A stretch of 16,104 nt of DNA from Comamonadaceae bacterium (GTDB taxonomy: Bacteria; Pseudomonadota; Gammaproteobacteria; Burkholderiales; Burkholderiaceae_C). Shown here piece after piece: positions 12,844-16,104 of the stretch. How positions within the stretch are numbered: position 1 is the first letter of the stretch; every line of letters starts with the position of its first letter. The stretch lies in contig CANHUM010000007.1 in NCBI GenBank assembly GCA_947463845.1, forward strand, positions 1 through 16,104. The letters run 5' to 3'. The position numbers and the translations under genes are program-made. Below the pieces are notes generated by a model, which saw only the letters and a program-made list of their open reading frames with translations, ran no database searches and was not told where the DNA came from.

Positions 12844-14382
12844 CTATCCCTGTGCCGCCACCCGGTCTGCCTTGCTTTGCAATTTGTTCAAGGCGCTCAG
12901 ATAGGCCTTGGCCGAGGCCACGACGATATCCGGGTCAGAGCCAACGCCATTGACCACGCGTCCACTGTTCTGCAAGCGCACGGTGACTTCGCCTTGGCTC
13001 TCGGTCGAACCACTGATGGCATTGACCGAATACAACACCATCTCGGCACCACTCTTGATGAACGATTCAATGGCTTTGAGCGAAGCATCCACAGGCCCAT
13101 TGCCATCGGACGCACTGCGCACTTCTTTGCCATTCACTGTAAAAACCACAGAGGCATGGGGACGCTCACCGGTTTCACTGTGTTGGGCCATGGAGACGAA
13201 ACCATACTGCTCTTTCTCGGTGGTCACGCTCTCGTCGCTGACCAAAGCCAGGATATCCTCGTCAAAGATCTCGCTCTTGCGGTCGGCCAACTCCTTGAAT
13301 TTGGCAAAAGCGTTGTTGATTTCAGTCTCACTGTCGAGCGTCACGCCCAGATCCTCCAAGCGCTGCTTGAAGGCATTTCGGCCACTGAGCTTGCCCAAGA
13401 CGATCTTGTTGGTGGTCCAGCCCACATCTTCAGCCCGCATGATTTCATAAGTGTCACGCGCTTTGAGTACACCGTCCTGATGGATGCCTGAAGCATGCGC
13501 AAAGGCATTGGCTCCGACCACCGCCTTGTTGGGTTGAACCACGAAACCGGTTGTCTGGCTGACCATGCGACTGGCGGCCACGATGTGGCTGGTGTCGATG
13601 CCGACATCGAGTCCAAAGTAGTCCCGCCGGGTCTTGACGGCCATGACCACTTCCTCCAAAGAGCAATTGCCCGCACGCTCACCCAAACCGTTGATCGTGC
13701 ACTCCACTTGACGCGCGCCGCCAATTTTGACGCCAGCCAGGGAGTTGGCCACCGCCATTCCCAGGTCATTGTGGCAATGAACCGACCAGATGGCTTTGTC
13801 CGAATTGGGAATACGTTCACGCAGGGTTTTGATGAAATTGCCGTACAACTCTGGAACGGCATAGCCCACGGTGTCGGGCACGTTGATGGTGGAGGCGCCT
13901 TCGGCAATGACCGCCTCCAGGATGCGACACAAAAAGTCCATGTCACTGCGGTAGCCATCTTCCGGGCTGAATTCGACATCAGCCACCAAATTGCGCGCAA
14001 AACGAACCGATTGTTTGGCCTGCTCAAACACCTGATCAGGCGTCATGCGCAACTTCTTTTCCATATGAAGCGGCGATGTGGCAATGAAGGTATGGATTCG
14101 TCCACTGTTGGCGCCCTTGAGCGCCTCTGCTGCGCGTGCGATGTCACGGTCATTCGCCCGGGACAAAGAGCAGATCGTTGAGTCCTTGATGGCATCAGCG
14201 ATGGACTTCACGGCTTCGAAATCACCATTGGAGCTGGCGGCAAAACCAGCTTCGATCACATCCACGCGCAGCCGCTCCAACTGACGGGCAATGCGCAGCT
14301 TCTCATCGCGGGTCATGGATGCCCCCGGTGATTGCTCGCCATCGCGCAGGGTGGTGTCGAAAATAATCAATTTGTCAGTCAT
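12844..14382 (-). CDS. leuA: 2-isopropylmalate synthase LeuA
   Basis: Condenses acetyl-CoA with 2-oxoisovalerate, the first committed step of leucine synthesis, with leucine feedback inhibition. The 512-residue protein has [12 protein letters not shown] (9-20), the metal ligands HCH (His202, His204) in [11 protein letters not shown] and GERAGN (234-239). After the catalytic TIM barrel and linker comes the C-terminal LeuA regulatory domain (about 385-510), so allosteric control by leucine is expected. The ATG at 14382 has AGGAG five bases upstream. The GTG at 14388 overlaps that ribosome binding site and is not used. It is preceded by a leucine-rich leader peptide and attenuator and followed by a strong terminator, so it forms its own regulated unit downstream of pssA. 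Confidence 0.97.
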
Positions 14383-14425
14383 GTTCACTCCTGGTCAGTA
14401 ACCCGCAAATCCAAGCAAAAATGCA

Positions 14426-14457
14426 AAAGGCCCGATGCGAGTGGCATTCGGGCCTTT
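14426..14457 (-). terminator. Attenuator terminator hairpin upstream of leuA
   Basis: The minus strand has AAAGGCCCGAATGC and GCATCGGGCCTTT, pairing over 13 bp with one bulged A and a 5-base loop CACTC. It is followed by TGCATTTTTGC, a broken T-run. Its place between the leader peptide and leuA, on the same strand, marks it as a conditional terminator. The hairpin is nearly self-complementary on the other strand too, but no plus-strand gene needs it. Confidence 0.85.
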
Positions 14458-14477
14458 AGGGAAAATGTTTGCGTGCG

Positions 14478-14531
14478 CTACACATCCCGCCCGAGGGGCG
14501 CTAGCAGTAGTGCAATCAAAGAAAAATTCAT
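14478..14531 (-). CDS. leuL: leu leader peptide (17 residues)
   Basis: The peptide reads MNFSLIALLLAPLGRDV and ends in TAG. Five of 17 residues are leucine, three of them consecutive and encoded CTA CTG CTA, with CTA seemingly uncommon in the surrounding genes. An isoleucine precedes them and a valine closes the peptide, so other branched-chain amino acid shortages might also be sensed. No proper Shine-Dalgarno precedes the ATG; instead an extended -10 element lies six bases upstream, suggesting translation from a leaderless mRNA. The peptide itself probably has no role beyond sensing translation at leucine codons to control leuA. The symbol is by analogy with the enteric gene. Confidence 0.82.
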   Translation of the reverse strand: MNFSLIALLLAPLGRDV

Positions 14532-14537
14532 AGGTTC

Positions 14538-14546
14538 ACTTTAGCA
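14538..14546 (-). promoter_or_regulatory. Extended -10 promoter element of leuL-leuA
   Basis: The minus strand reads TGC TAAAGT, an extended -10 with four of six matches to TATAAT. Six bases (GAACCT) separate it from the leader ATG at 14531, so transcription should begin at or next to that ATG. The -35 region is poor (GACAGC at 18 bases). It lies in the 48-base gap after pssA, the only space for a dedicated promoter. Confidence 0.5.
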
Positions 14547-14579
14547 CAATTCAAAACAAGTGCTGTCGTGCAAAGGACA

Positions 14580-15395
14580 TCACTGGTGCAAACCCCGCTC
14601 ATCCGGGTCATCTGTTGAAGTGCTGATCATGCTGGTCGGCTGACCTTGTGCCTTGCGCCAAAGGTAAATCACATAACCACTCAAACCATAAGCGACAAAC
14701 AGACCGAACAGAACTGTGGGTGGGTCAATGTTCACCACAGCGATTCCCAGCGCGACCAAAACCAAGGTGGCAAATGGCACGCTTTTCTTCATGTGCATGT
14801 CCTTGAAGCTGTAAAACGGCACATTGGTCACCATGGACAAGCCCGCAAACAGGCAAACAGCAAACATCCCCCACGACACCGCTTTGGGCGAAACGGCGTT
14901 CTCAAACATGATCCATACAAAGCCCATGACCAAGGCCGCTGCCGCAGGCGAAGGCAAGCCCTGGAAATAGCGCTTGTCCACGACGCCAGTATTCACATTG
15001 AAGCGCGCCAGTCGCAGCGCTGCACAGGCGCAATAAACAAATGCTGCGATCCAGCCCCAGCGACCCAATTCCTTGAGTGTCCAGACGTACGCGATCAAAG
15101 CGGGGGCTGCGCCGAAAGACACCATGTCGGAGAGAGAGTCCATCTGCTCGCCAAAAGCACTTTGGGTATTGGTCATTCGGGCTACGCGACCGTCCAGACT
15201 GTCCAGCACCATGGCACTGAAAATGCCCACAGTAGCCAGTTCAAAACGCCCGTTGATGGCCATCACGATGGCATAAAAGCCAGCAAACAAGGCCGCCAGG
15301 GTGATCATGTTGGGCAACATGTAAATGCCTTTTGAGGGCTTGCGCACCAGCGTCGAGGCCTCTGCGTCATCAGCGGTGTCGTTGGCTTTGTTCAT
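14580..15395 (-). CDS. pssA: CDP-diacylglycerol-serine O-phosphatidyltransferase PssA (CDP-alcohol family)
   Basis: Makes phosphatidylserine from CDP-diacylglycerol and serine in the inner membrane; decarboxylation then gives phosphatidylethanolamine. The 271-residue protein has the exact CDP-alcohol phosphotransferase signature D-x2-DG-x2-AR-x8-G-x3-D-x3-D from Asp65 to Asp90. About six to eight hydrophobic helices span residues 25-255, with a polar tail ending in ERGLHQ. This is the polytopic type, unlike the peripheral PLD-like PssA of E. coli. The ATG at 15395 follows AGAGG at eight bases. ilvC lies upstream beyond a terminator, and the leu leader lies 48 bases downstream with no terminator in the gap, so pssA transcripts may run into the leu attenuator. 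Confidence 0.95.
   Translation of the reverse strand: MNKANDTADDAEASTLVRKPSKGIYMLPNMITLAALFAGFYAIVMAINGRFELATVGIFSAMVLDSLDGRVARMTNTQSAFGEQMDSLSDMVSFGAAPALIAYVWTLKELGRWGWIAAFVYCACAALRLARFNVNTGVVDKRYFQGLPSPAAAALVMGFVWIMFENAVSPKAVSWGMFAVCLFAGLSMVTNVPFYSFKDMHMKKSVPFATLVLVALGIAVVNIDPPTVLFGLFVAYGLSGYVIYLWRKAQGQPTSMISTSTDDPDERGLHQ

Positions 15396-15513: not shown

Positions 15514-16104
<591 letters not shown>

Follow-up and report, generated by a model that had tools for sequence, protein, structure and literature searches.

The gap between pssA and leuA in the Comamonadaceae genome examined here very likely carries a leucine-sensing, ribosome-mediated transcription attenuator of leuA, the leader peptide of which would be translated from a leaderless message. 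We analyzed a 16,104-nt stretch of DNA (the window), and the element lies on its minus strand. An original prediction, made from the letters of the window alone, had proposed such an attenuator at 14412-14546; all parts were found in the sequence at the claimed place, and that span holds every part from the −10 box to the U tract. A short Leu-rich open reading frame (ORF) precedes a leucine-pathway gene, an intrinsic terminator lies between the two, and an antiterminator that is mutually exclusive with the terminator can be drawn.

Following the minus strand, an extended −10 promoter element, TGCTAAAGT (TG-C-TAAAGT; 14538..14546, with TGTG starting at 14548), is located 6 nt 5′ of the ATG of a 17-codon leader peptide ORF (14478..14531). 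The encoded peptide, MNFSLIALLLAPLGRDV, is read from the ATG at 14531 to the TAG stop at 14480-14478 and contains five Leu, with the consecutive control codons CTA CTG CTA (Leu 8-10) at 14502..14510; no Shine-Dalgarno (SD) sequence precedes it. Both the 17-residue, five-leucine leader and the small hairpin just past its Leu codons were therefore present as predicted. This hairpin 1, the putative anti-antiterminator (14468..14520), consists of the core CGCCC-CTC-GGGCG at 14500-14488 and outer stems. The antiterminator (14448..14494) pairs TCGGGC (14489-14494) with GCCCGA (14448-14453); the six-base pairing of the original prediction was thus recovered, but as no more than the outer section of a longer hairpin, predicted in the window to continue inward through GGGA/UCCC and a further short stem. 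The intrinsic terminator, AAAGGCCCGA...TCGGGCCTTT (14418..14457), has arms at 14457-14448 and 14435-14426 and a loop of 12 nt, and the T-rich tail predicted behind it exists as TTTTGCATTTTTG, a U tract that is interrupted. The strand, the −10 box with the apparent leaderless start, and the longer antiterminator around the six-base pairing had been absent from the prediction.

Downstream of the terminator lies the putative regulated gene, leuA (minus strand, 12844..14382), which encodes 2-isopropylmalate synthase (NCBIfam PRK00915 group, E 2.8e-273; TIGR00973, E 1.2e-211). Its likely start is the ATG at 14382, 5 nt past AGGAG, and the GTG at 14388, given as the leuA start in the ORF list, overlaps the leuA SD. 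On the other side, pssA (minus strand, 14580..15395; NCBIfam TIGR00473) ends only 48 nt before the leader ATG. Upstream of pssA and on the same strand is ilvC (15514-16095; NCBIfam ketol-acid reductoisomerase models), which is cut by the window end.

Folding of the 135-nt stretch gave −44.7 kcal/mol (z −3.35), with 2 of 200 shuffles as good, and the terminator alone gave −20.2 kcal/mol (z −5.87), with 0 of 200 shuffles as good. The ORF segment plus hairpin core alone was no stabler than its shuffles (z −0.42; 67 of 200 as good). Simple scans of the window called neither a terminator nor a promoter, because they restricted loops to 3-8 and required a −35 box. The pattern CTACTGCTA-N4-16-GGGC occurred once in the 1.69-Mb genome, and because its backwards control occurred once too, the case is carried by recurrence in relatives and not by rarity in the genome.

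The closest named relatives of the window LeuA were Comamonadaceae such as Limnohabitans (95-96% identity). We took leuA loci from named genome contigs (80 loci) and from 200 same-family genomes (182 with leuA at E 1e-100), and 4 duplicates were removed from the 111 loci in total, the window counted. A strong terminator and an ORF then preceded leuA at 81 loci, 25 lacked such a terminator, and one had the terminator but no ORF, its contig starting too late; several of the 25, among those listed, end in the apparent C-terminus of another LeuA-family protein. Setting aside the odd leaders L007, L064, and L090 reduced the 81 to 78, and a 93% similarity filter left 68, of which 64 were aligned (alignment A1), with the divergent L055, L078, L080, and L081 omitted. 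A covariance model, R1, was built from this 64-leader alignment with the promoter sequence not included, and it matched 143 of the 200 family genomes at E 1e-5, covering 108 of 141 genera. Twenty of the 57 family genomes that had no R1 match at this cutoff were then opened (12 from the listing and 8 deduced from their absence among the matches). In 18 of them, a Leu-rich ORF was seen behind an extended −10 box (a poor one in L266), and when searched as short loci these 18 all matched R1 once E values up to 1 were admitted, 17 of them at 3.2e-4 or better. Leaders of a divergent type, with AR, RAR, or RVR at their end, were observed in L260, L261, L265, L267-L272, L274, L276, L277, and similar loci; these leaders mostly have TGA stops, altered hairpins (GCGCGCG facing CGCGCGC in L269 and L276), and poor R1 scores.

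Across 399 genomes of the order, R1 matches listed at 40 bits or more came only from the same family (11 of the 12 listed) and from four genomes of a second family, f10, and the best match outside these two, among the matches listed, scored 35.4 bits. Fifteen order-wide loci of 28-36 bits (L127-L141) did not resemble leuA leaders, as the downstream ORFs listed for them do not begin like LeuA. The counts given below refer to 121 model hits, 117 from the same family and 4 from f10, which comprise 116 of the 120 places of at least 40 bits among the 200 family genomes, G330, and the four f10 places; G125, G123, G025, and G063 were left out, and 25 weaker places are not among them. As R1 was trained on Leu-rich leaders with terminators, the same features in its hits are partly there by construction, and the counts are not independent events, since related sequences share history.

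At least three Leu codons were present in all 121 leaders (range 3-7), LL in 121, and LLL in 96. Our ORF picker prefers Leu-rich ORFs and was hence also run on controls: on the opposite strand, at least three Leu codons were found in 38 of 121 ORFs and LLL in 1 of 121, and 1000 random places yielded 128 and 11, respectively. Conservation of the Leu-rich frame in relatives, a check proposed with the original prediction, was thus borne out. The leaders were mostly 17-19 codons long (107/121), and the distance from ATG to GGGC was a multiple of 3 in 92 of the 101 leaders where GGGC was found. Furthermore, CTA accounted for 280 of 554 leader Leu codons versus 14 of 2990 in leuA of 80 loci, where it is the rarest Leu codon, and for 1 of 285 in eight window genes. 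In the control ORFs, CTA made up 46 of 236 Leu codons on the opposite strand and 55 of 858 at random places, which can include leaders. The CTA bias may be partly due to pairing of CUAC with GUAG in hairpin 1.

The prediction had also raised multi-amino-acid sensing, by which the attenuator would respond to all branched-chain amino acids with its Ile and Val codons included. The window leader does contain an ATT two codons ahead of the Leu run and a GTG at its end. Counted at any position, however, Ile was found in only 54 and Val in only 38 of the 121 leaders, against Leu-Leu in every one; by geometry, the Val codon lies past the antiterminator strand, so that a ribosome stalled there would be expected to favor termination. 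This makes sensing of all three amino acids very improbable: the Ile and Val codons are not conserved, and the element would therefore read leucine only.

We then consider where the leader transcript begins. The box TGnTAnnnT was located 6, 7, and 8 nt before the leader ATG in 35, 53, and 18 of the 121 model hits (106 in total) and at these distances in 0 of 121 opposite-strand and 3 of 1000 random-place controls. These spacings were counted from an ORF pick blind to the promoter; the first-round spacing for 81 loci is not quoted because its ATG choice favored a nearby −10 box. Fifteen hits had no −10 at 6-8 nt, 7 of them having none and 8 having one at 9-19 nt, and at least two of the 15 are due to a wrong ATG pick. 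The box-aligned profile of 35 sequences reads TGTGnTAnAnT, and positions −37 to −19 are little conserved (at most 0.35 bits). The extended −10 promoter is a textbook motif for which little upstream conservation is expected. In keeping with a leaderless attenuator of the Sinorhizobium meliloti trpL type, the SD was almost always missing: an SD core preceded 2 of 121 leaders versus 95 of 104 leuA starts, and mean anti-SD duplex energies were −0.79 kcal/mol for leaders, −6.66 kcal/mol for leuA starts, and −1.92 kcal/mol for shuffled leader upstreams. A start 6-8 nt past the box would coincide with the ATG or slightly precede it, and therefore the leader mRNA is probably leaderless, its predicted 5′ end being no more than about 2 nt from the ATG.

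Alternatively, this could be a classical attenuator with an ordinary 5′ UTR, whose transcripts begin at a more distant upstream site, such as an unseen promoter, or arrive by read-through out of pssA, the TGnTAnnnT box then not being the main start. The short distance to pssA and the position of ilvC-pssA upstream on the same strand would suit such a transcript. So would the other 2 of the 20 opened genomes, L264 (G033) and L275 (G088), where no leader was found, no R1 match occurred at E up to 1, and pssA abuts leuA, so that leuA can probably be co-transcribed; these two loci are apparent natural losses of the attenuator and would be useful natural controls. Nevertheless, given the regular spacing of the box and the missing SD, a longer transcript would offer little on which translation could begin, and the low conservation from −37 to −19 also speaks against an upstream start, which we consider rather unlikely.

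All 121 model hits have a terminator-like hairpin, which is to some extent built in because the terminator is part of the model, and the terminator is the best conserved part of the alignment. In the 64 aligned sequences, 95.2% of its cells were paired, and compensatory changes were observed at two pairs that switch together (A-U 49/C-G 15 and G-C 50/A-U 14). Double changes in the terminator numbered 32 versus 7.5 in shuffles, and the pairs with any double change numbered 3, no more than in shuffles (2.7). It could be argued that the hairpin mainly serves as the terminator of the ilv-pssA transcript and that the Leu-rich ORF is incidental. A terminator would not be out of place behind pssA, and its being the best conserved part, together with the ordinary stability of the hairpin core alone, agrees with this; but the leader frame, the CTA bias, and the promoter box are kept before LeuA in two settings, and an incidental ORF is not expected to hold the rare CTA at 50%. 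The chance that the hairpin merely ends the ilv-pssA transcript is in our estimate minimal, and we return to its role in attenuation.

In the 64 sequences, 83.0% of the cells of hairpin 1 were paired, and slid positions gave 31-50%. In the outer stem of hairpin 1, the leader stop-codon region is the partner of the Leu codon run, and the fold of the first 71 nt, at −20.5 kcal/mol, is similar in stability to the antiterminator, the segment of which folds at −18.3 kcal/mol in the window. The outer helix of the antiterminator was 96.4% paired versus 95.7% in shuffles, with three of its six pairs invariant, and its conservation has two explanations because the same GGGC also pairs inside hairpin 1. 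At least four of the six outer pairs were kept in the minimum free energy fold of 64 of 64 sequences, and among the model hits the GGG paired into the terminator arm in 117 of 119 (2 of the 121 dropped out) with a mean z of only −1.5; both sets of folds used segments starting at the free strand, which favors that pairing by design. Within that limit, the loss of the alternative pairing in relatives, which had been named with the prediction as grounds for refutation, was not seen; the pairing can form there, and together with the Leu frame kept in 121 of 121 leaders it supports a ribosome-mediated attenuator of leuA as far as sequence tells. The inner antiterminator helices were variable and only 54-56% paired in register, and by pair counting the extended antiterminator was not clearly above shuffles on any measure.

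Covariation in TCGGGC/GCCCGA, which the prediction had suggested looking for, is thin, as three pairs never vary, and what speaks for it are coordinated triples. The informative triple comprises the base before CGGGC, its partner in the first terminator arm, and a third base in the second arm. Among the 64 sequences, A/T/A occurred 27 times, A/T/G 24 times, and others 13 times; T/A/T was found in the window only and G/C/G in L086 only, both of which keep antiterminator and terminator paired. Having T/A/T, the window therefore differs from the usual set at all three bases together. The pair formed by the base before CGGGC is broken in 10 of the 64 sequences, indicating that this antiterminator pair is not essential. 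In a swap test with the 121 leaders, own arms gave −12.79 kcal/mol versus −12.46 kcal/mol for permuted arms, a small margin that 1 of 2000 permutations equaled or bettered, and in 36 divergent leaders the test was not significant (694 of 5000 permutations as good). Furthermore, when nt 1-84 of the window leader were folded without a ribosome, the antiterminator was preferred over hairpin 1, and in the full leader hairpin 1 plus terminator was preferred. Hairpin 1 could therefore protect only kinetically. Such fold preferences by length are as would be expected of a switch governed by timing.

On this anatomy we propose the following course of events. RNA polymerase would start at the predicted 5′ end from the extended −10 promoter, as the spacing suggests, and a ribosome would load on the 5′ AUG without an SD. 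When charged tRNA-Leu is ample, the ribosome would pass CTA CTG CTA, reach the stop codon, and cover the antiterminator strand; GGGC would be withheld from the terminator arm by hairpin 1 or by the ribosome, the terminator would form, and transcription would stop about 115 nt out. When charged tRNA-Leu is scarce, above all the CUA-reading one, the ribosome would stall at codon 8 or 9 and block the 5′ arm of hairpin 1, leaving UCGGGC free to pair with GCCCGA before the second terminator arm is made, and with the antiterminator formed the polymerase would continue into leuA. A ribosome shields about 12-15 nt past its A site. By this geometry, UCGGGC (nt 38-43) would stay largely exposed during a stall at codon 8 or 9, which would allow the antiterminator, and would be hidden once the ribosome stands on the stop codon (nt 52-54), which would allow the terminator. 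The scheme would be that of classical attenuation, differing from it in the start and the small size.

The gene behind the switch is not always the same. Leader-to-leuA distances were compared in 115 leader rows, the model places in the 200 family genomes numbering 145. A leader lay 15-75 nt before leuA of the window type (leuA-I) in 68 rows and 1474-1843 nt before it in 46 (45 at 1.69-1.84 kb and one at 1474 nt), and in one row leuA-I was on another contig. The statement that leuA stands alone behind pssA therefore holds in the window but not in every relative, leuA being some 1.5-1.8 kb further on in those 46 rows. The intervening gene, which was read in G070 and G111 (full) and in G122 and G128 (N-terminus), G111 not being among the 115 rows, reads as a second, distantly related 2-isopropylmalate synthase gene, leuA-II, confirmed by NCBIfam in G070 (PRK03739 and leuA_yeast models). 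In L255 (G070) and L251 (G111), leuA-II and then leuA-I stand in tandem behind one attenuator. Such an arrangement would account for the LeuA-family C-termini met at several of the 25 loci that lack a terminator directly before leuA. At the f10 loci, the next gene begins like leuA-II in 4 of 4 (L256 confirmed by NCBIfam), and no leuA-I follows at L254 and L256, the two opened further. G044 has two leaders, L248 (contig C12) and L151 (contig C77), one each before leuA-II and leuA-I. The switch thus seems to have persisted through a change of the enzyme downstream of it, and its occurrence before two distantly related LeuA enzymes suggests that regulator and enzyme have been shuffled separately.

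No match to the Rfam Leu_leader family (RF00512) was found in the window and none at threshold (50 bits) in 12 relatives; in 20 relatives, the best score was 26.0 bits (E 0.051) in one, below the gathering threshold. Likewise, no Rfam family reached threshold in the window or the 12 relatives, and the search of the 20 relatives gave, up to E 1, a total of 6 matches, none of which reached its gathering score. A riboswitch or other catalogued RNA was rejected on these grounds, and the weak Thr_leader match in the window (23.5 bits) and the Leu_leader match were treated as chance-level similarity of leader shape.

The leu attenuator of Salmonella and E. coli (leuL; RF00512) shares with the present element the Leu run, rare CUA, the hairpin, the antiterminator, and the terminator before leuA. 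In contrast to it, the element described here has no SD, has its promoter at the ATG, and precedes leuA alone or leuA-II/leuA-I rather than leuABCD. The E. coli leu leader has 28 amino acids and 4 Leu, according to a passage of PMC6123439, compared with mostly 17-19 codons here; of the original view that the leader is shorter and the antiterminator more compact than in enterics, the first part stands, and the antiterminator in the window exceeds six bases. Regarding the control codons, passages of PMC1183508 state that changing three CUA to CUG lowered the sensitivity of the Salmonella leader and that, in theory, no leu codon suits control in E. coli better than CUA.

Leaderless attenuator leaders have precedents as well. 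The ribosome-dependent attenuator RNA of Sinorhizobium meliloti trpL (rnTrpL/peTrpL) begins with the leader-ORF ATG, as predicted here (passages of PMC7298713 and PMC10117765), whereas it senses Trp, belongs to the Alphaproteobacteria, and has known trans roles. Actinobacterial attenuators, namely the mycobacterial polycysteine ORFs and Corynebacterium ilvBNC, also have a leader ORF on a leaderless mRNA according to parts of PMC13236596 and PMC11857589, the mycobacterial likeness being drawn from the title of a reference cited by the former, Canestrari et al. 2020; they concern other amino acids and another phylum, and the leaderless leader ORF is the only feature by which they are likened. 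The actinobacterial LEU element, as described in a portion of PMC1262725, has an upstream ORF with a Leu codon run before leuA, as here, but is a pseudoknot in which Leu codons pair with the leuA SD, whereas here a terminator is present and Leu codons pair with the stop-codon region.

Searches of the open-access literature listed no report of the element, subscription papers lying outside their scope. Vitreschak et al. 2004 is reported to treat proteobacterial attenuators, among which a case from betaproteobacteria may figure. A wide survey of premature terminators does not mention leuA in its main text, as far as this was covered (PMC2965389). Each ingredient has been described before: leucine attenuators, CUA control codons, and leaderless attenuator leaders. 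The element is best called a putatively leaderless leu attenuator family of Burkholderiales; it would operate in the manner of the enteric leu attenuator, but by score it is not a member of RF00512.

Further elements were noticed at other loci. In the same genus, a TGnTACACT box was found 9 nt before the ATG of an ORF upstream of trpE in 6 of 8 loci (L289, L290, L291, L292, L293, and L295), L288 and L294 being cut by contig ends. The ORF has 27-31 codons, contains GAW(P/S)WR, and lies about 255-300 nt upstream of the trpE match; judged by sequence, it probably encodes a trp leader peptide and has a near-leaderless start of a similar kind. Up to about 200 nt upstream of ilvB, a strongly conserved block was seen in 10 loci (L278-L287), reading TTGCAATTGAAAAAA...GCAAACGGATCACC...AAGGTTTTTCGTTAGAGAAATTCACAAAGGTTGAA in most, and no leuA-type leader was found there. 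The Rfam ilvH RNA (RF02993) was found above threshold downstream of the ilvB match in 2 of 3 ilvB loci searched (L281:3226-3293 and L283:3242-3309).

On circumstantial grounds, namely the absence of an SD, the promoter box, the place behind pssA, and the W-x-W ORF with a similar −10 before trpE, we tentatively raise a broader, and in our view doubtful, reading: leaderless attenuation could be a lineage-wide design in these Burkholderiales, and the element could be an insulator as well as a leucine sensor. Because the sensor ORF would be translatable only on transcripts starting at its own AUG, the attenuator would then answer its own promoter alone, and every polymerase arriving by read-through from ilvC-pssA would be stopped at the terminator. 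By analogy with rnTrpL/peTrpL, the released leaderless RNA of about 115 nt or the 17-residue peptide might act in trans.

For the family itself, the finding adds an RNA family for which no Rfam entry was found, present in most sampled genomes of one betaproteobacterial family and in some of a second, and it provides another natural test of CUA as the preferred leucine control codon. A testable question absent from textbook attenuation also arises, namely how ribosome and polymerase would keep step when the sensor ORF stands at the 5′ end and has no ribosome-binding site.
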